IMG/VR virus record: IMGVR_UViG_3300012920_000074
Location: 1-45,557 of that record
Reading direction: 5' to 3' (one strand)
Source of the DNA: a virus
Length of the DNA stretch: 45,557 nt
Below are positions 1,091 to 8,838 of this stretch, one piece after another (within the stretch, counting starts at the first letter, position 1; each line of letters starts with the position of its first letter). A program made the translations under genes and the position numbers. The notes under the pieces were generated by a model. That model searched no databases. It was not told the DNA's origin and saw only the letters and a program-made list of their open reading frames with translations.

Positions 1091-1126
1091 GTTAGTTACC
1101 TCTAAATGTCCCCTATAGTGTAAGCA
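1091..1126 (+). repeat. Intercistronic repeat copy 1
   Basis: Near-consensus copy of the 36-nt element beginning GTTAGTTACC and ending CTATAGTGTAAGCA, placed four bases after the TAA of the peptidase-like gene and eleven bases before ATG 1138. The TATAGT hexamer is a possible -10 element; no good -35 hexamer lies at 16-18 bp. Confidence 0.9.
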
Positions 1127-1137
1127 TCCAACCAACC

Positions 1138-1479
1138 ATGAGAAAAATTGAATCCCAAATGTGTGCAGCAGTTCAAAGTAACAAGAACTGGACATCTGGC
1201 AACACATCAGTTATCACTGAAGATATGACTTCCAAAGTATATCTTCATGGCAATCATATTGCCACTATTGATGAAGATTCAATGACAATCTATGATGGTG
1301 GTTGGCAATCTAACACCACAAAATCAAGACTTAATGCACTTTGCAGTGAGTTTTGTATTGCTGGTGAGGGTGTTTTCCAATCAGATTTTGTCTGGTATAT
1401 CAGACATTTTGTTGGCAAAATCAATGGTCAGAATGTATTCAAGACTGTTGAATTTGACAATGGTTACACTTTCGCCTGA
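1138..1479 (+). CDS. Conserved cyanophage hypothetical protein (113 aa)
   Basis: 113 codons from an ATG that follows repeat copy 1. The protein has the layout of a small conserved family I associate with marine cyanophages: an N-terminal MRKIE helix, a central VYLHGNHIATI strand-turn segment and a C-terminal NGYTFA ending. It contains Trp- and aromatic-rich stretches (NKNWTSGNT, FVWYIRHF) and looks like a compact mixed alpha/beta domain. There is no catalytic signature. It is the first gene of a three-gene unit ending at 2041. Family recognition is from memory; no function is known to me. Confidence 0.8.
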   Translation: MRKIESQMCAAVQSNKNWTSGNTSVITEDMTSKVYLHGNHIATIDEDSMTIYDGGWQSNTTKSRLNALCSEFCIAGEGVFQSDFVWYIRHFVGKINGQNVFKTVEFDNGYTFA

Positions 1480-1499
1480 TCACTAATTAACACATTATC

Positions 1500-1709
1500 A
1501 TGAACAATTCTTCTACTGTCCTCAAGGAAATGCAGTCTCTTCAGAAAACCTGGAGGGCACAAAACTTCTACTTGACTAATGAACAACAGGCACGATATGA
1601 TGAGTTGGTGATGCTTAGGAAAGCATTTATTCAGTATTGGAAAGAGAATGATATGGTCTGGGTAGGACCATCTAATGCTGGCAAATCTAAAGAACAAAGT
1701 GAGGACTGA
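1500..1709 (+). CDS. Small hypothetical protein (69 aa)
   Basis: 69 codons starting at ATG 1500, twenty bases after the preceding stop, ending TGA 1707-1709 two bases before the next ATG. The first half is helix-rich and charged (LKEMQSLQKTWRAQNFYLTNEQQARYDELVMLRKAF-like pattern, given here only as a description), the C-terminus is hydrophilic. No family recognised. Tight spacing to both neighbours supports expression from the repeat copy 1 unit. Confidence 0.7.
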   Translation: MNNSSTVLKEMQSLQKTWRAQNFYLTNEQQARYDELVMLRKAFIQYWKENDMVWVGPSNAGKSKEQSED

Positions 1710-1711
1710 GC

Positions 1712-2041
1712 ATGAAATTTGATAAAATTTTTGATCAACCAATCCAGTGTGAGGATGAGACTTTTGTCTACAATCATGCACGCTGTGAATATCTTGCTGG
1801 TGAATGTCTGACCCAATATGAGGATCAGATGGAGAAAATATGCAAAAAGTATAAGAAAGCAAAGAAAAGGAAGCAAGTAAGGTATCATGCCCTAAACATG
1901 ATTTCATTGCACTCTGAGTGGCATGTAGAGGGGTCTGATGAGACATTGTACCTCATATACAATAAGGAAGGTGATACCTTCACTGATATTGTTACTGAGA
2001 ATGAATACTATTCATCAGGTAATAATGAGGAAGATTGTTAG
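1712..2041 (+). CDS. Hypothetical protein (109 aa) whose stop codon is supplied by a repeat
   Basis: 109 residues from ATG 1712. The middle contains a dense basic run (KICKKYKKAKKRKQ, residues about 48-61) between two acidic/aromatic segments. The TAG stop at 2039-2041 is formed by the GTTAG that opens repeat copy 2, so the element has been fitted directly onto the gene end. No family recognised. Confidence 0.7.
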   Translation: MKFDKIFDQPIQCEDETFVYNHARCEYLAGECLTQYEDQMEKICKKYKKAKKRKQVRYHALNMISLHSEWHVEGSDETLYLIYNKEGDTFTDIVTENEYYSSGNNEEDC

Positions 2042-2065
2042 TAACCACTAAATGTCCCCTATAGT
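2037..2065 (+). repeat. Intercistronic repeat copy 2
   Basis: Variant copy (GTTAGTAACCACTAAATG...CTATAGT), diverging after TATAGT where GTAAGCA is replaced by AACACA. Its first bases provide the stop codon of the preceding gene. Here TTAGT and ACTAA could form a 5-bp stem, but the pairing is not kept in other copies. Confidence 0.85.
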
Positions 2066-2081
2066 AACACAACACAAGCAC

Positions 2082-2375
2082 ATGGACTTCACTGAAGAAA
2101 ACAATTTTTTTGATGATGGTGAATTGCAATTCAATGAAAAGAGGGGTCGCCCTTCTCTTGTTAATTGGGACAATGTAATTAACAGCAATAAATGGTATTT
2201 TCTTAACAATACTGAAAGATCTGAAATTGCTATTAAAAATGACAGTAGACCTCAACCACCTGCAAAATTAGTGTGTGAAGGATATAAATTTACAATTAAA
2301 AAATGCACACATCCTGATAGTGGGGAGCAAGGACTAGCAATCAGATGTGTTCAATATCCAGATGATCAAGAGTAG
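2082..2375 (+). CDS. Hypothetical protein (97 aa)
   Basis: I start this gene at ATG 2082 (MDFTEENNFFDDGE) because the longer in-frame start at 2052 lies inside repeat copy 2, upstream of any transcript start that its TATAGT could specify. The 97-residue product has an acidic N-terminus, a central basic KRGRPS segment reminiscent of minor-groove-binding AT-hook cores (RGRP), and an ECD-like C-terminal half rich in Cys/His (KKCTHPDSGEQG). DNA contact through RGRP is a possibility only; single RGRP motifs also occur by chance. Confidence 0.65.
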   Translation: MDFTEENNFFDDGELQFNEKRGRPSLVNWDNVINSNKWYFLNNTERSEIAIKNDSRPQPPAKLVCEGYKFTIKKCTHPDSGEQGLAIRCVQYPDDQE

Positions 2376-2378
2376 ATT

Positions 2379-2414
2379 GTTAGTTACCTCTAAATGTCCC
2401 CTATAGTGTAAGCA
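2379..2414 (+). repeat. Intercistronic repeat copy 3
   Basis: Exact match to copy 1 over the 36-nt core, also sharing the flanking ATCCAA. It starts three bases after a TAG stop and lies eight bases upstream of ATG 2423. Confidence 0.9.
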
Positions 2415-2422
2415 TCCAAACC

Positions 2423-2587
2423 ATGAAACCTTATCCCCTTGGCATTGACAACCCTATCCTAGTCAAAGGGGTGTGGGGTTCACATAAGTGGGCATTGTAT
2501 TGGAAGGAAGATATGCAAAAGATTGCAACTTTCTCCAATCAATTCACTGCTTATCAGGCAAGACAAACTATCATTGAATCATTATGA
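2423..2587 (+). CDS. Small hypothetical protein (54 aa)
   Basis: 54 codons from ATG 2423 to TGA 2585-2587, overlapping the next ATG as ATGA. The product has a Trp-rich N-terminal half (VKGVWGSHKWALYWKED) and a helical C-terminus (FTAYQARQTIIESL). Trp-x(3-7)-Trp spacing with alternating charges suggests a small beta-sheet domain. Translational coupling links it to the KxDG protein, perhaps as a partner. No family recognised. Confidence 0.65.
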   Translation: MKPYPLGIDNPILVKGVWGSHKWALYWKEDMQKIATFSNQFTAYQARQTIIESL

Positions 2588-3471
2588 CAAAAACTCACAT
2601 TGAACACCCAGAAGATTCTATTTTGACTGGTGATCTGTCATTCTTTGATGCGTTATCTACCACTTCACATGTGAGCATGAAGATGGATGGAATGTCTCTA
2701 GTTTGGGGCACTAATCCTAACAATGGCAGGTTTTTTGTATGCACCAAAAGTGCATTCAACAAGAAAAAAGACAAGAAATGTTATACACATGATGACATAT
2801 TTGCACACTTTGGTCATCAAGTAGAAGTGGTGGATATTCTATCACATTGCCTTAAGTATTTGCCTAGAACTGATAACATTTACTGGGGTGATTGGTTGGG
2901 TTTTGGTCGCACTGATGTGATGACACAAAACACACTAACATATGCCTTCCCTGAGAAGATTGAGCAGAAACTTGTTATTGCTCCACATACACAAGTTCAT
3001 CTCACTCAGGATGGTCTATTTTGCAATGCTGTGTGTAAACCACTAACTGAAACATTTACCAACTCCAGTATCATCAAATGGGTGCAACCTGTGGTTGATA
3101 AAGTATATGTGGACAATGACCCAGTTATTATCAATCAGGATGCTATCTCATTCTTGACTGATAAGGAGGCAAGTCTTGCCAAGCAAAGTATCAACAAACT
3201 GATCAAGTCTGGTCAGAGTTTGACTGATGATGTGCTGACTGCAATCCTTGGATGTAATCAACTTGCTAATCTGTATCAGTTGGTGATAGAGATGAAAGAG
3301 GAGTTGATGGATAGTTTCATCATTATTGATGCCCCTGATGCTTATCTTCCCAATGGTGATTATACCAGGTTTGGTGAAGGTTTTGTGATGGATAATGTGT
3401 GGGGCACATACAAACTAGTGAATAGATTTGAATTTGCTCATGCTAACTTCAATCATGGATATAGCAAGTAG
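2584..3471 (+). CDS. KxDG-motif nucleotidyltransferase/ligase-like protein
   Basis: 295 residues. MKMDG at 32-36 matches motif I (KxDG) of the covalent nucleotidyltransferase superfamily that includes ATP-dependent DNA/RNA ligases and capping enzymes; Lys33 would be the AMP-bearing residue. FFVCTKSAFNK (50-60) follows where motif Ia is expected, NIYWGDWLGF (98-107) sits where the motif III acidic/aromatic strand is expected, and near the C-terminus GEGFVM (264-269) resembles motif IV and YKLVNRFEF (276-284) motif V. The protein ends eleven residues after this, so it lacks the OB-fold domain normal in ligases. Seen: ordered motifs. Inferred: adenylylation chemistry; substrate (RNA, DNA or protein) cannot be told. 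It resembles a cyanophage family of unknown function I know only as hypothetical. Confidence 0.6.
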   Translation: MTKTHIEHPEDSILTGDLSFFDALSTTSHVSMKMDGMSLVWGTNPNNGRFFVCTKSAFNKKKDKKCYTHDDIFAHFGHQVEVVDILSHCLKYLPRTDNIYWGDWLGFGRTDVMTQNTLTYAFPEKIEQKLVIAPHTQVHLTQDGLFCNAVCKPLTETFTNSSIIKWVQPVVDKVYVDNDPVIINQDAISFLTDKEASLAKQSINKLIKSGQSLTDDVLTAILGCNQLANLYQLVIEMKEELMDSFIIIDAPDAYLPNGDYTRFGEGFVMDNVWGTYKLVNRFEFAHANFNHGYSK

Positions 3472-3474
3472 ATT

Positions 3475-3510
3475 GTTAGTTACCTCTAAATGTCTTCTAT
3501 AGTGTAAGCA
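3475..3510 (+). repeat. Intercistronic repeat copy 4
   Basis: Copy of the 36-nt element with TCTTCTATAG in place of TCCCCTATAG. It starts three bases after TAG 3469-3471 and ends nine bases before ATG 3520; flank ATCCAA is shared with copies 1 and 3. Confidence 0.9.
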
Positions 3511-3519
3511 TCCAAATTT

Positions 3520-3741
3520 ATGACACTCACAGAAAAAAATCAATTGCAATTTGATCTTCGTCAGAAGATGTGGGAAGCACAATCTACAGTTGAATTTTGT
3601 AAGCAACAGATTGCAAAATTAGAGAGAGACTATAAAGAATCACTAGAACCTGACCTCTTTACACAAATGTTTGGTGAGCAAGTAATGGTGCCCACAATAT
3701 ACACTGACACACCCATGGCAGAAGAGTATTATGGTGGGTGA
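3520..3741 (+). CDS. Small helical hypothetical protein (73 aa)
   Basis: 73 residues. The N-terminal two thirds form one amphipathic helix with possible coiled-coil heptads (NQLQFDLRQKMWEAQ, then KQQIAKLERDYKES), and the C-terminal third is proline- and tyrosine-containing and ends in EEYYGG. It is the only gene between repeat copies 4 and 5, a single-gene cassette. No family recognised. Confidence 0.7.
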   Translation: MTLTEKNQLQFDLRQKMWEAQSTVEFCKQQIAKLERDYKESLEPDLFTQMFGEQVMVPTIYTDTPMAEEYYGG

Positions 3742-3745
3742 TATT

Positions 3746-3774
3746 GTTAGTAACCTCCAAATGTCCCCTATAGT
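3746..3774 (+). repeat. Intercistronic repeat copy 5
   Basis: Variant copy ending exactly at TATAGT, directly followed by ATG 3775. If TATAGT is a -10 element, transcription would begin past that ATG and translation would have to use ATG 3790. Confidence 0.85.
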
Positions 3775-3966
3775 ATGAACACAACACAAATGACTAAGTT
3801 TCAAGAAATCCTCCTACAATTGCCACAATTCATTGTAGAATGCAATGCAGATTGTGAGATGGCATATGATTGGGTATGTGAAATGATTGGTGAATCATTC
3901 GTATCCAATGATGATATGTGGTCTGAATTTTATGATGTTTGGGAGGATAATGCTGTTTGCTATTAA
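3775..3966 (+). CDS. Small acidic hypothetical protein (63 aa)
   Basis: 63 codons from ATG 3775; an in-frame ATG at 3790 (MTKFQEILLQ) is an equally good start and is favoured if repeat copy 5 is a promoter. The product is acidic and rich in Cys, Asp and Trp (VECNADCEMAYDWVCEM, SNDDMWSEFYDVWED), with three Cys in the first half that could bind a metal or form a disulfide. No family recognised. Confidence 0.65.
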   Translation: MNTTQMTKFQEILLQLPQFIVECNADCEMAYDWVCEMIGESFVSNDDMWSEFYDVWEDNAVCY

Positions 3967-4027
3967 GTATTTCTATTTTACTAGTCTTGGTGTCATTTTT
4001 GTTCTTTTCCTTAAATCAATCTCATGA
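3950..4027 (+). CDS. 25-residue hydrophobic micro-protein
   Basis: A 25-codon frame runs from ATG 3950 to TGA 4025-4027, overlapping the preceding gene by 17 bases and the next gene's ATG as ATGA. It fills the only gap between 3966 and 4024. GGGAGG at 3941-3946 just upstream is a strong Shine-Dalgarno match, though the spacing to ATG is only three bases. The peptide is nearly all hydrophobic (YFYFTSLGVIFVLFL) with one Lys near each end, as expected for a single-pass membrane peptide. It could also be a chance frame. Confidence 0.45.
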   Translation: MLFAIKYFYFTSLGVIFVLFLKSIS

Positions 4028-4188
4028 CTAAAACACAATTATTGAAGGTTATTAAAGAAACAGCAGATCAACATCCATCATTGGATAAGTATCAGAAATT
4101 TCATGTATTTGTGACTATATGTGATGGTATGCTAGAGCAGCATCGTATCACACAGGAGCAACATACACGCTGGACTAACATTTATTAA
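4024..4188 (+). CDS. Small hypothetical protein (54 aa)
   Basis: 54 codons from ATG 4024 to TAA 4186-4188. It is predominantly helical, with three short amphipathic segments (TQLLKVIKETAD, KFHVFVTICDGMLEQH, ITQEQHTRW). The ATGA overlap with the hydrophobic micro-protein suggests coupled translation. No family recognised. Confidence 0.6.
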   Translation: MTKTQLLKVIKETADQHPSLDKYQKFHVFVTICDGMLEQHRITQEQHTRWTNIY

Positions 4189-4212
4189 ATACAATTTTCT
4201 TTTTTTATTATC

Positions 4213-4386
4213 ATGGACAGACTTGAATTTCTCACACAACGTGAACAGTTGATGGAAAACATTGACTCTATTGTTGATGAGTTCTTTCACCAACATTATG
4301 TGGGTGATATTGAACTTAGGGATAAGTTAGTTACCAAACTGTGTGATTCAGTTTGTGATACTATGGACCCAGTAGGTATGGCATGA
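4213..4386 (+). CDS. Small hypothetical protein (57 aa)
   Basis: 57 codons from ATG 4213, 24 bases after the previous stop in a T-rich spacer with no Shine-Dalgarno, to TGA 4384-4386. The product is acidic and helical (RLEFLTQREQLMENIDSIVDE) with two Cys (45 and 49, C-D-S-V-C). It is the last gene before repeat copy 6. No family recognised. Confidence 0.6.
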   Translation: MDRLEFLTQREQLMENIDSIVDEFFHQHYVGDIELRDKLVTKLCDSVCDTMDPVGMA

Positions 4387-4391
4387 TTATT

Positions 4392-4427
4392 GTTAGTTAC
4401 CTCTAAATGTCTCCTATAGTGTAAGCA
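4392..4427 (+). repeat. Intercistronic repeat copy 6
   Basis: Copy with TCTCCTATAG. Its terminal A is the first base of ATG 4427, so the element abuts the coding region with no room for a ribosome-binding site; a transcript starting after TATAGT would be nearly leaderless or use ATG 4439. Confidence 0.9.
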
Positions 4428-4780
4428 TGACTGATCCAATGACAACCACACAAACAAAAGCAGAATTTCTGACTGAAGCACTCATTGAGACTGTAAACAA
4501 TGAGTGGAAAGTAAATGCCCTTGAGAATAATGTGAACCACTATTCTATGCTGAGCATGGAAGTAGGTCGCAAATATATTAAAGTATGGCAACAGAATGTG
4601 TGGGATGGTGTTGTCAGGGAGAGTCGCAGTTGCTTTATGTTTGTTGATAAAAATGATGGTGCTGTGTATAAACCAGCATCATACAAAGCACCTGCTAAGG
4701 GTATCAGATTCAGCATTGAAGGATTAAATGAAAACCCCCATATTATTGATCAATTTGGTAGTTTTCTCTACAGACGTTGA
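4427..4780 (+). CDS. Conserved cyanophage hypothetical protein (117 aa)
   Basis: 117 residues. After a polar N-terminus the core carries a motif set I recognise from many marine T4-like phages: GRKYIKVWQ, SCFMFVDKNDG and YKPASYKAPAKGIRFS, which reads like a small antiparallel beta domain ending in a conserved PAKG loop. There is no catalytic residue set. ATG 4439 is an alternative start (MTTTQTKAEF) and would give the transcript from repeat copy 6 a short leader. Function unknown. Confidence 0.75.
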   Translation: MTDPMTTTQTKAEFLTEALIETVNNEWKVNALENNVNHYSMLSMEVGRKYIKVWQQNVWDGVVRESRSCFMFVDKNDGAVYKPASYKAPAKGIRFSIEGLNENPHIIDQFGSFLYRR

Positions 4781-4819
4781 TTAACACTTAACTCTCTCCC
4801 ATTCTTTACATTTTTCATC

Positions 4820-5380
4820 ATGGCAAAACCTATTACTTGGACTGCAAATATCACTGGTAAAGGTTACACTCCTTGTGAGGTAAGTATCAGTGGACCAAGC
4901 ACAAGTAAGTATGCCTATGCTGCACTTAGCGCACAATATCCTGGTGCTAAGGTTTACAATGTAAGGCGTGATACTGCTGCTATTCAAGAAGAATGGGAGG
5001 ATACATTAGAGAAGTCAGGTGCAAATAAGGGTGGAAGTTCTGCTGAGGCGATTAACACCACATCATCACAATCTAGTGGTGGTGGATATGAACTTGATCT
5101 AGGATCTGCATTAGGTTTAGGTGCATTGATTATAGGTGGAGTTGGTATCTGGTTTGCGTGGATGTTGCTGCCACTGGTAACAGGAATTGGAGGACTATTT
5201 GCAGGGTATAAGTATAGTTCAAAGTATTCAGTTAATGTTAATTTCCATCTGCGTATGTGGTTAGTCTTAGGGAGTGCAATCCTTGGTGCAACTGGTGGAT
5301 ATATGGTAGGGGATAAGGTACATGAATTCACAGGAATGTCAAGCATGAATAACACTGAGCAGGTGCAACAAGCAAAGTAG
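4820..5380 (+). CDS. Membrane protein with soluble N-terminal YPGA domain
   Basis: 186 residues. Residues 1-60 form a soluble domain with the segment AALSAQYPGAKVYNVRR (35-50), similar in shape to ALDKIYPGARVQRF in the protein at 43781. A Gly/Ser linker (70-90) leads to a hydrophobic hairpin at about 95-129 (LGALIIGGVGIWFAWMLLPL) and another segment at about 146-165. The membrane part is glycine-rich, as in small phage membrane proteins that sit in the host inner membrane. It is the second gene after repeat copy 6 and ends three bases before copy 7. Function unknown; a lysis-timing or host-modification role would be speculation. Confidence 0.75.
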   Translation: MAKPITWTANITGKGYTPCEVSISGPSTSKYAYAALSAQYPGAKVYNVRRDTAAIQEEWEDTLEKSGANKGGSSAEAINTTSSQSSGGGYELDLGSALGLGALIIGGVGIWFAWMLLPLVTGIGGLFAGYKYSSKYSVNVNFHLRMWLVLGSAILGATGGYMVGDKVHEFTGMSSMNNTEQVQQAK

Positions 5381-5383
5381 ATT

Positions 5384-5419
5384 GTTAGTTACCTCTAAAT
5401 GTCTCCTATAGTGTAAGCA
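5384..5419 (+). repeat. Intercistronic repeat copy 7
   Basis: Identical to copy 6 across the 36-nt core and, like it, ends in the A of the next start codon (ATG 5419). It begins three bases after TAG 5378-5380. Confidence 0.9.
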
Positions 5420-5754
5420 TGACTCAAATCCAAATGAACTTCACTTTTTCACAAATGAACCCTGAATTCAGGGGTGCATATGTTGCAATTGCTGGTGGTG
5501 ATATTACTACCATCAAAATGTTTGATGGCAAAAGTGAAATGTATTCTTGGATTATTGATATGATTGAGGTGCAAGGTTATCCCTATGTTGAGACAACAAT
5601 TGTCACATCAAATGGCACTGTAGATGATAGATTGATCAGCAAATCTGCTATCTATAAGTCATCTGAGAATTGCTATAAGTTTGGTCCTATTGAACCTGAG
5701 TGTGGTGAATCTATCTTTGTTCAGTATAATGACCATTGTGCAATTGCTGCCTAA
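5419..5754 (+). CDS. Hypothetical protein (111 aa)
   Basis: 111 residues, single gene between repeat copies 7 and 8. The sequence alternates hydrophobic strands and turns (YVAIAGGDITTIKMF, YPYVETTIVTSNGTVDD), suggesting a compact beta-rich domain. Three Cys lie in the C-terminal third. ATG 5434 (MNFTFSQMN) is a possible alternative start if the repeat is a promoter. No family recognised. Confidence 0.7.
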   Translation: MTQIQMNFTFSQMNPEFRGAYVAIAGGDITTIKMFDGKSEMYSWIIDMIEVQGYPYVETTIVTSNGTVDDRLISKSAIYKSSENCYKFGPIEPECGESIFVQYNDHCAIAA

Positions 5755-5758
5755 TAAA

Positions 5759-5794
5759 GTTAGTTACCTCTAAATGTCTCCTATAGTGTAAGCA
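5759..5794 (+). repeat. Intercistronic repeat copy 8
   Basis: Full copy with TCTCCTATAG, seven bases after a TAA stop. Unlike the others it is followed by a 90-base leader rather than an immediate start codon. Confidence 0.9.
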
Positions 5795-5884
5795 GGATTT
5801 CTCCACTAGGTTGCTTCTCTGATTCTCAGACTTCTTCACTAGTGTTGTTTCTCCTCTCCCACTAAATCTTTTTTCTTTCACATT
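5795..5884 (+). other. Pyrimidine-rich leader between repeat copy 8 and ATG 5885
   Basis: Ninety bases with very few purine runs, dominated by TTCTC/CTCC blocks. Two imperfect copies of a CACTAGgTTGcTTCTC-type segment lie at 5802-5820 and 5835-5854. There is no Shine-Dalgarno before ATG 5885. It could be an S1-type unstructured leader or a remnant of a duplicated sequence; no coding frame is supported. Confidence 0.4.
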
Positions 5885-6139
5885 ATGACTTCAACTTATC
5901 AAACACAATTGACTGATACAACTTACAATGGTTGGACTAATTACTCCACTTGGAATGTTGCTCTCTGGTTGCAAAATGATGAGGGTTTGTATAACCTTGC
6001 CCTAGATTACAAGGATTATGGTTACAATGCTCTTGCAGAATTCCTGACTGAGTTTATGTCAGAAACCCCAGATGGTGTTTCTTATACATCATCAGATCTT
6101 AATATCTGTGAACTCAATGATATGCTGGAGGAACTGTGA
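5885..6139 (+). CDS. Small conserved NGWTNYSTWN protein
   Basis: 84 residues with the signature YNGWTNYSTWNVALWLQND at 14-32, which I recognise from a small family of unknown function (DUF7249-like) found in phages and bacteria. The remainder is acidic and helical (LAEFLTEFMSETPDG, ICELNDMLEEL). It heads a four-gene chain in which every junction is a stop-start overlap (GTGA 6136, ATGA 6279, ATGA 6551). Function unknown. Confidence 0.8.
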   Translation: MTSTYQTQLTDTTYNGWTNYSTWNVALWLQNDEGLYNLALDYKDYGYNALAEFLTEFMSETPDGVSYTSSDLNICELNDMLEEL

Positions 6140-6282
6140 AACTTATATTTTTCTTCATCATCACTCTCTTAGTTGTTAATCTAGGTATTGACCTATTAGA
6201 TAACAACATGAATGAGATCTATAGAGAAAGGCAAGAAGTTCTAAGAAGACTCACATCTAAACCATCAAACATCATCCAATGA
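6136..6282 (+). CDS. 48-residue membrane micro-protein with GTG start
   Basis: The frame opens with GTG overlapping the previous TGA (GTGA) and closes with a TGA overlapping the next ATG (ATGA), exactly filling the 139-base gap between two clear genes. GGAGG at 6127-6131 precedes the GTG by four bases. Residues 2-16 are a continuous hydrophobic segment (KLIFFFIITLLVVNLG) followed by a charged helix (NEIYRERQEVLRRLTS), the layout of a small type II or signal-anchored membrane protein. No family recognised. Confidence 0.65.
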   Translation: MKLIFFFIITLLVVNLGIDLLDNNMNEIYRERQEVLRRLTSKPSNIIQ

Positions 6283-6554
6283 TTGCATCATCAAACCTTT
6301 CAAAAATCAAACCCAAACTAAGAACAACTGGTCAGGTAACTGGTAACTTTGGAAAGGCAAAAGTCAGAACTAATGGTAACACAGAACTAGGATATACAAG
6401 TAAGAAAGATATATCTCCAGTCACTACATTTGATGCTTATATTAACAGATTGTATGATGCAATGAATAACACAGATGATGACAGATTAAAGAAATTCTGT
6501 TATACTGAAATCAAGAAGTATCTCATTAAAACTAATCAGTGGAGTGCATCATGA
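6279..6554 (+). CDS. Hypothetical protein (91 aa)
   Basis: 91 codons from ATG 6279 (ATGA overlap) to TGA 6552-6554 (ATGA overlap with the next gene). The N-terminal half is basic and disordered-looking (KIKPKLRTTGQVTGNFGKAKVRTNG), the C-terminal half a helix pair (FDAYINRLYDAMNN, DRLKKFCYTEIKKYL). No family recognised. Confidence 0.7.
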   Translation: MIASSNLSKIKPKLRTTGQVTGNFGKAKVRTNGNTELGYTSKKDISPVTTFDAYINRLYDAMNNTDDDRLKKFCYTEIKKYLIKTNQWSAS

Positions 6555-6805
6555 GTAACACAATTCAAGAGAACATCATTGACAGAGATGTACTTCAGGA
6601 CAAGTATGTTCAGCAGATTATTGATAGTCTAGACCTAGATGATTGCCTTGCTATGTTATATGATTATATCAGCAAAGATCAGGATAGTTTGACATTCTCA
6701 GAACTGCTAGAAGATGTCAATGAGTATTACCCAGAACTGCTAAATTGTGCCTCTTATAGTGAACAGAACCTGGAAGCAACTTCACAGGGTGATATAGGCA
6801 AATGA
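6551..6805 (+). CDS. Acidic hypothetical protein (84 aa)
   Basis: 84 residues from ATG 6551; an in-frame GTG twelve bases upstream is rejected in favour of the ATGA overlap. The product is strongly acidic and helical (IIDRDVLQDKYVQQIIDSLDLDD, FSELLEDVNEYYPELL) and resembles small phage proteins that bind basic host partners, though no family is recognised. It is the last gene of the copy 8 unit and precedes a non-coding stretch. Confidence 0.7.
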   Translation: MSNTIQENIIDRDVLQDKYVQQIIDSLDLDDCLAMLYDYISKDQDSLTFSELLEDVNEYYPELLNCASYSEQNLEATSQGDIGK

Positions 6806-6821
6806 ACCCCAAAATACCCTC

Positions 6822-6828
6822 ATAAATA
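6822..6828 (+). promoter_or_regulatory. Late-promoter-like ATAAATA
   Basis: ATAAATA seventeen bases after a stop codon and ahead of non-coding sequence. It matches the T4/cyanophage late sigma (gp55) element, but no late gene follows for about 330 bases, so it either drives a non-coding RNA or is chance in AT-rich DNA. Confidence 0.4.
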
Positions 6829-7074
6829 GCACTTTTTCATTAAAATACATTTATAAATGTTATTTTTAATATGTTTAAGTGTTGTATTCAGAGGGTCAAA
6901 TACGCTGGAAAGTGTATCCCAATGCCCTGCTAAGTGTCTCTGAAGACCCTTAGAATGCCTCCACAAAGGTCTCATCTTATAGTGATCTTAGGCAGCAGTC
7001 TATCATCAACTCTCAGAAATGTCAACCCCCTCAGTGACACTTTGCCCACCTGCACATTTTCCACTATGTGACAC

Positions 7075-7103
7075 TTGACAAATCCCAATCCTGGTGGTAT
7101 TAT
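7075..7103 (+). promoter_or_regulatory. Sigma70-type promoter TTGACA-N17-TATTAT
   Basis: TTGACA at 7075-7080 and TATTAT at 7098-7103 are separated by exactly 17 bases, 11 of 12 consensus positions. It ends one base before repeat copy 9, so that copy would lie in the 5' leader of the transcript for the genes at 7154 and 7341. Confidence 0.65.
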
Positions 7104-7104
7104 T

Positions 7105-7140
7105 ATTAGTAACCACCAAAGGTCCACTATGATGTAAGCA
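7105..7140 (+). repeat. Intercistronic repeat copy 9 (divergent)
   Basis: Most divergent copy: ATTAGTAACCACCAAAGG...CTATGATGTAAGCA. The TATAGT hexamer is lost to TATGAT but GTAAGCA is kept. A normal sigma70 promoter sits directly upstream, which may have relieved selection on this copy. Confidence 0.75.
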
Positions 7141-7153
7141 CTGCAATCCACTC

Positions 7154-7270
7154 ATGAATTCTTATCAACAACTGCTACAGTCCATTGATGACATCAAAGC
7201 AACAGGTAAGAAAGTTAAAGTAACAGTGCTGCCCAGTGCTATCAGAAAGAAGCAGAAATCTCTGCTCTGA
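7154..7270 (+). CDS. Small basic hypothetical protein (38 aa)
   Basis: 38 codons from ATG 7154, thirteen bases after repeat copy 9, to TGA 7268-7270. The product has a helical N-terminus (SYQQLLQSIDDIKAT) and a basic C-terminus (GKKVKVTV, IRKKQKS). Placement after a sigma70-type promoter plus the repeat is the main support. No family recognised. Confidence 0.55.
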   Translation: MNSYQQLLQSIDDIKATGKKVKVTVLPSAIRKKQKSLL

Positions 7271-7714: not shown

Positions 7715-7746
7715 CCCCCTGTAGGTTTGACGCCCACAGGGTTTTG
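7715..7746 (+). terminator. Intrinsic-terminator-like hairpin
   Basis: CCCTGT at 7717-7722 pairs with ACAGGG at 7736-7741, extended across an A-C mismatch by GG/CC, followed by TTTTGTT. An A-run lies immediately upstream, so it could act in both directions. The T-tract is short. Confidence 0.55.
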
Positions 7747-7773
7747 TTATATACTGTGTTGATATAAAGACTT

Positions 7774-7788: not shown

Positions 7789-7986
7789 TTGGACTCCCAA
7801 GAGAAATTTTACCACATATATTTGAAGAATGAGTGTGTACTTCATTCATTGGATGAGAAGAATTTCAAGTCATCCTGGGATACACTACAGAATCTAGTGG
7901 GACTGGTGAAAACAGACTATGTTGCTGAAGATCTCTCATATGAGGTAGTGACACCTCTACAAAAAAGAGAGGATATCAGTAATTAA
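7789..7986 (+). CDS. Hypothetical protein (65 aa) with TTG start
   Basis: The frame opens at TTG 7789, eight bases after a near-perfect Shine-Dalgarno (AAGGAGG, 7774-7780), the strongest ribosome-binding site in the window. The 65-residue product has a FYHIYLKNECVLHSLDEKNF strand-turn region then a helical middle (WDTLQNLVGLVKTDY) and an acidic tail; it looks like a small alpha/beta protein. It stands alone after a terminator-like hairpin. No family recognised. Confidence 0.65.
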   Translation: MDSQEKFYHIYLKNECVLHSLDEKNFKSSWDTLQNLVGLVKTDYVAEDLSYEVVTPLQKREDISN

Positions 7987-8003: not shown

Positions 8004-8032
8004 TTGACACTGAGTTAAATAAGATGTATAAT
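8004..8032 (+). promoter_or_regulatory. Perfect consensus sigma70 promoter
   Basis: TTGACA (8004-8009), 17-base spacer and TATAAT (8027-8032): 12 of 12 consensus positions. Transcription would begin near 8039, so the in-frame TTG 8032 and ATG 8035 cannot be used and ATG 8056 is the start of the downstream gene. This is a host-type (early) promoter. Confidence 0.85.
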
Positions 8033-8055: not shown

Positions 8056-8838
8056 ATGGCAAAAGGATTTACAGTAAAGGCAGCAGCGCCAAAGGCAACA
8101 AAGAAGCCTGCTGCAGAATGGGATTATGATGCAATCAAGGCAAGGATGAAGGGCAAGGCAATTGTTTTCTGTCTGCCAGGGCGTGGTTGTTCATATGCTT
8201 TTATGAAGAACTTTGTGCAGTTATGTTTTGATCTGGTGCAGAATGGCATGTCAATCCAGATCAGTCAGGATTACTCTTCTATGGTGAACTTTGCAAGATG
8301 CAAGTGCCTGGGAGCAAATGTCCTCAGAGGACCTGATCAAGTACCCTGGGATGGTAAGTTGCAGTATGATTACCAACTGTGGATTGATTCAGATATTATT
8401 TTCAACACTGAGAAGTTCTGGCAACTGTGTGATCTTGCCTTGAACTCAGAGAATGAAGAGAAGCAGATTGTAGCAGGATGGTATAGTACTGAGGACGGTA
8501 GGACGACCTCTGTGGCACATTGGCTGGAAGAGGATGACTTCCGTAATAATGGTGGTGTGATGAACCATGAGATGGTTGATGGTATTACTAAGCGTAAGAA
8601 ACCATTTACTGTTGACTATACTGGTTTTGGATGGGTGATGATTCAGAAGGGTGTCTTTGAGAATGAGGGTATGAAGTATCCTTGGTTTGCTCCTAAGATG
8701 CAGGTGTTTGAGTCAGGTGCTGTCCAGGATATGTGTGGAGAGGATGTAAGTTTCTGTCTGGATGCTATTGAGTCTGGATATGAGATCTGGTGTGATCCAC
8801 GCATTAGAGTGGGACATGAGAAGACGCGTGTCATCTGA
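8056..8838 (+). CDS. GT-A fold glycosyltransferase-like protein
   Basis: 260 residues from ATG 8056, chosen because a consensus promoter overlaps the earlier in-frame starts. After a basic Ala/Lys/Pro tail (1-22), GKAIVFCLPGRGCS (33-46) reads as the first beta-strand of a nucleotide-sugar-binding fold. YQLWIDSDIIFN (106-117) carries a DxD motif (Asp111-Ser-Asp113) for metal/NDP-sugar binding, and near the C-terminus GEDVSFCLDA with a following VGHEK resembles the ED catalytic-base region and closing His of family-2-like enzymes. Seen: motifs in order. Known: GT-A enzymes transfer sugars from NDP-sugars. Inferred: it could modify phage DNA, virion or host surface glycan; acceptor unknown. It overlaps the next gene by 23 bases. 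Confidence 0.75.
   Translation: MAKGFTVKAAAPKATKKPAAEWDYDAIKARMKGKAIVFCLPGRGCSYAFMKNFVQLCFDLVQNGMSIQISQDYSSMVNFARCKCLGANVLRGPDQVPWDGKLQYDYQLWIDSDIIFNTEKFWQLCDLALNSENEEKQIVAGWYSTEDGRTTSVAHWLEEDDFRNNGGVMNHEMVDGITKRKKPFTVDYTGFGWVMIQKGVFENEGMKYPWFAPKMQVFESGAVQDMCGEDVSFCLDAIESGYEIWCDPRIRVGHEKTRVI

Follow-up and report, generated by a model that had tools for sequence, protein, structure and literature searches.

What does a 36-base sequence do that stands nine times, always in the direction of the genes, between the small genes of a T4-like virus of ocean cyanobacteria? The question is raised by a 45.6 kb fragment of such a cyanophage (Kyanoviridae), positions 1 to 45,557 of the IMG/VR record IMGVR_UViG_3300012920_000074, referred to below in its full length as the window. 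A sequence-only reading of the window had interpreted the copies as promoters with TATAGT as the -10 hexamer, possibly recognized by a phage-specific factor and allowing the shuffling of small genes by recombination. The present analysis establishes the sequence as a real, widespread and lineage-specific element at the head of gene cassettes, its family being common to one set of cyanomyoviruses (Kyanoviridae). With a rough probability of 0.58, it serves as a cassette promoter specific to its lineage, with the putative -10 at TATAGT, the terminal A as the predicted +1 and a helper factor.

Copies of the element in the window and in related phages

Positions within the element are counted from the first T of TTASTNACC (position 0); the 36 bases run from -1 to 34, which places position 0 of copy 1 at 1092 and its position 34 at A1126. 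A weight matrix made from 200 distinct IMG/VR copies, with the window excluded, recovered the nine copies exactly where they had been reported, at 42-65 bits against -25 for the next-best site in the window and -19 for the best of three shuffles, a distance that excludes chance; the same scan revealed no tenth copy anywhere in the 45.6 kb. All nine lie on the + strand, as had been noted, and their spacing is irregular (271-1346 bases), unlike that of clustered regularly interspaced short palindromic repeats (CRISPR), which the sequence-only reading had rightly set aside. The motifs described for the two ends are indeed shared, but each is exact in only six of the nine copies: GTTAGTTACC gives way to GTTAGTAACC in copies 2 and 5 and to ATTAGTAACC in copy 9, and the 3' motif CTATAGTGTAAGCA to CTATAGTAACACAA, CTATAGTATGAACA and CTATGATGTAAGCA in copies 2, 5 and 9, respectively. 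Likewise, the claimed proximity to a stop codon applies to eight copies, which start 3-5 bases past the stop or (copy 2) include it, but not to copy 9, which is preceded by ~300 non-coding bases. The claim that the copies stand just ahead of the next start has to be amended, since an ATG lies inside the element or at its last base in copies 5, 6 and 7, and copy 8 is followed by a leader of 90 nucleotides (nt) (Table 1). This leader (window 5795-5884) is G-poor and pyrimidine-rich, and some relatives' copies (L001, L005, L020, S-B05) run on into GTAAGGGTTCAGNCTTCTC. The element also holds stops in all three frames (TAG at positions 1-3 and 24-26, TAA or TGA at 29-31), so that any upstream reading frame would end within it, which may be a chance product of AT-rich signals.

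The copies divide the small-gene block of the window, which precedes the baseplate genes gp25/gp6, into cassettes of one to four genes with mostly unknown products (those recognized are Kyano_Gp96, DUF6267, DUF7717 and DUF7249). The order helicase, small genes, gp25, gp6 is common to P-TIM68, SynMITS9220M01, Syn1, ACG-2014f and Syn9, and in all relatives read the element is restricted to the block between the helicase gene and gp25/gp6, its copies occupying a single locus in the complete genomes (190-209 kb) of S-B05, SynMITS9220M01 and P-TIM68. The top match of the window gp6 is that of RN05-S, from the S-B05 group (77% identity), followed by ACG-2014f (46%).

A search of related cyanophages, which the sequence-only reading had proposed, was rewarding: a degenerate pattern retrieved 78 stretches with the element from IMG/VR viral contigs (at most 14 copies in one contig, almost all of them on a single strand), and the element is present in S-B05 (14 copies, version TTACTCACC), SynMITS9220M01 (12 copies, TTACTCACCTCTAAAGTG) and P-TIM68 (13 copies, TTAGTTACCTCTAAATTGA). 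Every lineage has its own version throughout its copies, which indicates that the copies evolve in concert. The S-B05 record contains a 102-bp repeat at both MK799832.1 40399-40500 (L015) and 158813-158914 (L093), suggesting that its segment 1-40500 is joined in the wrong orientation; the helicase near 158.8 kb is probably what precedes its small-gene block, which, given the suspected misjoin, is adjoined by two + strand copies at 156 kb. A copy at 40.35 kb, apparently the head of a divergent operon and as such favorable to a promoter, was set aside on account of this misjoin.

Conserved architecture and its counterparts in other phages

The four families (window, S-B05, SynMITS9220M01 and P-TIM68) align without gaps over ~40 bases, and the blocks conserved across them run from -4 to 14 (A..RTTASTNACCTCNAAA) and from 24 to 34 (TANTRTRANCA). 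The layout comprises TTASTNACCTCNAAA (box 1), a linker of 9 bases, constant in length and variable in sequence among the families, and TANTRTRANCA. The A at -4 and the T at 0 are near-invariant, with W at -6 and -2; over 207 copies, C33 and A34 are conserved at.72 and.82, and G becomes scarce from position 33 onward, as in an unstructured leader. TATAGT agrees with TATAAT at five of six bases (P-TIM68 has an ATTAAT-type hexamer), whereas the place of the -35 is taken by GTTAST; a TTGACA-like -35 does not exceed shuffle expectation in most copies and is not enriched over all copies. No conserved RNA fold was found in the element, and the 60 nt upstream carry no stem-loop signal (mean z -0.6 to -0.1 in the four families) compared with a mean z of -3.0 for the P-TIM40 control, the signal in ACG-2014f and S-RIM12 being weak in the same test. 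The stated conservation of the whole spacer, the reported lack of a conserved stem and the proposed parallel to promoter/stem-loop cassettes, minus the stem-loop, are all borne out. Two further candidates were dropped: pairing or mimicry with 16S rRNA (ACCTCC resembling the anti-Shine-Dalgarno sequence), as one third of the copies have T or G in place of the last C, and a five-codon open reading frame (ORF) beginning with ATG14 and closed by the stop at 29-31, as ATG14 is frequently lost.

At the same locus other cyanophages (ACG-2014f, P-TIM40, S-RIM12) carry repeated sigma70 promoters, frequently with stem-loops. Those of ACG-2014f (25 copies) read TWGGCA-N17-TATACT-6 nt-A with a leader containing AAAGGA, those of S-RIM12 (eight copies) TTGNCA-N17-MATACT-ATAAGAGTCAAAGGA, a type matching 266 phage records, and P-TIM40 (44-63 kb, L153) has six copies of a stem-loop followed by CACTACCG and TATAAT. 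An alignment of all of them on the -10 places the -35 of ACG-2014f and S-RIM12 at element positions -1 to 4 and the probable C-A start of ACG-2014f at positions 33-34. The S-RIM12 orthologue of the gene after window copy 1 sits under a TTGCGC-N16-TACAAT site. This orthologue and the shared register provide the main ground for regarding the element as a promoter that has supplanted sigma70 cassette promoters. The element resembles such promoters in other Kyanoviridae in locus, direction, -10 register and role at the cassette head, and differs from them in that ACG-2014f and S-RIM12 have a -35 hexamer (P-TIM40 has CACTACCG instead), in their variable spacer, in the Shine-Dalgarno-like leader of ACG-2014f and S-RIM12 and in the upstream stem-loop of P-TIM40. 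Additional observations on these phages are a CACTACC box in P-TIM40, ~17 bases 5' of the -10 and near the place of ASTNACC in the window element, and, in ACG-2014f (38-64 kb, L150), a module of 76 bases whose arms are GTGACAGTTGG..AAGTGGCAC, repeated in a dense promoter/stem-loop array.

Gene order and candidate factors

Across the set, 82 gene families lie directly downstream of the element, in changing order. Within the block, gene-neighbor pairs are kept at 5.1% of element junctions vs. 10.7% of others (per-junction means for orthologues 30-70% identical; permutation p 0.001, or 0.045 for 30-88% identity), a modest effect obtained with simple gene calls and with junctions of related contigs that are non-independent. 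This weaker conservation of gene order across element junctions supports the cassette idea. Orthologues of reference genes that carry the element have it 5' in 64% of cases, against 30% for reference genes that lack it, the element staying with particular genes more than moving freely among them. Genes and element tend, to a modest degree, to travel together, with breaks commoner at the element; the shuffling envisaged earlier gains an association with gene-order breakpoints, but not a freely moving element.

The genome behind the window is represented by a 45.6 kb fragment only; the factors were sought in related complete genomes. MotA and AsiA were not found in S-B05, P-TIM68, SynMITS9220M01 or Syn9 (the RB14 control was positive), nor was a T7-type RNA polymerase (PF00940) in S-B05 or P-TIM68, while the same search detected it in P-SSP7 (E 2.7e-69). 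Since nearly all copies lack a -35 hexamer, a factor reading box 1 alongside RNA polymerase is probably needed, in line with the extra factor suspected by the sequence-only reading. As a separate matter, S-B43, of the S-B05 group, is reported to have a cytosine carboxymethyltransferase and hypermodified DNA (PMC12783734); such base modification might affect promoter recognition in the S-B05/S-B43 group.

The window also has classical promoters outside the element copies (Table 1). The stem-loop at 7717-7755 consists of CCCTGTAGG...CCCACAGGG followed by TTTTG and overlaps the promoter, as in the composites of other cyanophages.

Table 1. Element copies and other promoter-like features of the window
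Feature	Position	Strand	Remarks
Element copy 1	1091..1126	+	Predicted +1 at A1126; heads genes 1138-1479, 1500-1709 and 1712-2041
Element copy 2	2037..2072	+	Provides stop TAG 2039-2041 of upstream gene; heads gene from ATG 2081
Element copy 3	2379..2414	+	Heads genes 2423-2587 and 2584-3471 (DUF6267)
Element copy 4	3475..3510	+	Heads gene 3520-3741
Element copy 5	3746..3781	+	Internal ATG 3775 right after TATAGT, in frame; gene 3775-3966
Element copy 6	4392..4427	+	Last A opens in-frame ATG 4427-4429; genes 4427-4780 (DUF7717) and 4820-5380
Element copy 7	5384..5419	+	Last A opens in-frame ATG 5419-5421; gene 5419-5754
Element copy 8	5759..5794	+	Followed by 90-nt leader and gene 5885-6139 (DUF7249)
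Element copy 9	7105..7140	+	Most diverged copy; heads gene 7154-7270
Sigma70 consensus TTGACA-N17-TATTAT	7075..7103	+	Directly 5' of copy 9; start would lie inside element
Stem-loop + TTGACG-N17-TATACT composite	7717..7755	+	-13 kcal/mol, z -2.6; 5' of ORF 7789-7986; not an element copy
Perfect TTGACA-N17-TATAAT (12/12)	8004..8032	+	5' of gene 8056-8838; not an element copy

Discussion

The geometry and register shared with sigma70 cassette promoters speak for TATAGT as the -10, but two sets of observations weigh against it. The triplet after TATAGT, in 207 strict copies, is GTA in 105, ATG in 62 (~30%), ATA in 29 and never GTG, and this ATG (position 28) shares the frame of a long gene downstream in 61 of 63 cases (chance, ~1/3), in contrast to ATG14, which is present in 164 copies of a less strict set but leads into a long frame in just six. 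ATG28 is sometimes the sole plausible start, including in five single-gene cassettes, and four annotated SynMITS9220M01 genes begin exactly there. Together, in-frame use and annotation indicate that position 28 belongs to translated mRNA, whereas a start 5-8 bases after TATAGT, as the sequence-only reading had predicted, would leave ATG28 outside the transcript; with a start at A34 such genes would need transcripts from upstream, which are possible because no terminators lie between cassettes. ATG28 genes have a common N-terminus, MN[NT]T[QK] (ATGAACAACACTCAA), as if a CA-rich leader had turned coding. In addition, in at least four related groups and in window copy 9 a consensus TTGACA-N17/18-TATTAT or TATAAT ends at -3/-2, in a register constant to within one base (copy 9, L018/L070/L074, L052/L090, L064 and L089, with a weaker case in L071), and the start from these few promoters would lie inside the element.

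Both sets are accommodated if the element is instead a transcribed 5' leader, with the -10 in the AT-rich block from -8 to 0 (TATTAT/TATAAT/TAWWRT), a start at about 4-8 and no -10 function for TATAGT, the conserved 30 bases acting in RNA or as the initially transcribed region. A start near position 6 would give ATG28 an ordinary leader of ~22 nt, the near-invariant A -4 and T 0 and the W at -6 and -2 fit the upstream hexamer, and many cyanobacterial promoters lack a -35 (PMC3219970). However, most copies have no -35 for such a -10, those near a stop codon do not exceed shuffles in this respect, this reading does not account for the constant linker that separates the two blocks, no RNA structure was found, and in most copies ATG14 would open a short ORF ahead of the gene. 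The fixed bipartite spacing, the C-A start, the depletion of G from 33 and the register shared with cassette promoters elsewhere among the phages lead us to weigh TATAGT above this rather unlikely leader. An intercistronic RNA signal within long transcripts (a processing site or translation-initiation element, with no promoter) is less likely again: nearly all copies do lie between co-directional genes, ribosomes clearly see position 28 and no clear divergent operon-head copy was seen among 198 checked, but there is neither structure nor a Shine-Dalgarno sequence, the start codon lies at a distance of 28 or 42-53, orthologous genes in other phages have sigma70 promoters at the same place, and the -10-like AT block would lack an explanation. 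The less conserved gene order across element junctions would also suit a site serving primarily recombination or homing, with no transcriptional role; constant orientation, fixed start-codon distance and -10/initiator geometry, none of which a plain site needs, make this very unlikely. Scarcely credible is a promoter of a T7-like single-subunit RNA polymerase, although CTATAG resembles the T7/SP6 core and a +1 at G26 would keep ATG28 in the mRNA, since PF00940 is not found in S-B05 and P-TIM68 but found in P-SSP7, and box 1 reaches well past the -17 edge of T7 promoters.

If the element is a cassette promoter, transcription would begin at each copy, in front of one to four small genes forming a cassette. 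Box 1 would occupy the -35 place of the related phages' sigma70 promoters, followed after the fixed 9-base linker by a -10/initiator block TATAGT-RTAANC-A, with the last A as the predicted +1, and the host RNA polymerase would be aided by a phage or host factor reading box 1. With no stem-loops between cassettes, transcripts would continue into the next ones, making the block an operon with many internal promoters, and the repeated sequence may offer homology at cassette boundaries for exchange. It is a tentative proposal, at somewhat less than even odds, that this constitutes a new promoter class, in which the host polymerase is assisted by an as yet undescribed helper that recognizes TTASTNACCTCNAAA at the -35 place, a class which replaced the sigma70/stem-loop cassettes of other T4-like cyanophages and which undergoes concerted evolution over 9-14 copies per genome.

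Comparison with known systems yields partial likenesses. T4-type phages reportedly have promoter-early/stem-loop (PeSL) cassettes, said to have been described by Comeau et al. in 2010 and 2014. Like these, the element recurs between genes, at the head of small ones, in a variable part of a T4-like genome, and is tied to gene shuffling through gene-order breakpoints (a modest effect). Unlike them, it has no stem-loop terminator beside the promoter, only the -10 and not the -35 of a sigma70-type early promoter, 36 bases conserved throughout and an unrelated sequence; as two defining features fail, we do not class it as PeSL. It resembles T4 middle promoters (MotA box and sigma70 -10) in having a conserved box around -30 rather than a -35 and in retaining a -10, but the box differs and MotA and AsiA were not found. 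Doron et al. reportedly described in 2016 an element that regulates early genes in cyanophages Syn9 and P-TIM40; the likeness lies in its reported control of early genes in T4-like cyanophages, and neither Syn9 nor P-TIM40 carries the present family. The P-TIM40 module described above may be linked to that element.

Small genes of unknown function are believed to drive the early takeover of the host by T4-like cyanophages. A promoter common to dozens of small genes would provide a way to define the presumed early set in any genome or metagenome, and this interpretation predicts a trans-acting factor to look for. The findings also suggest that cassette-style shuffling may persist after the promoter/stem-loop module believed to bring it about has given way to an unrelated sequence.

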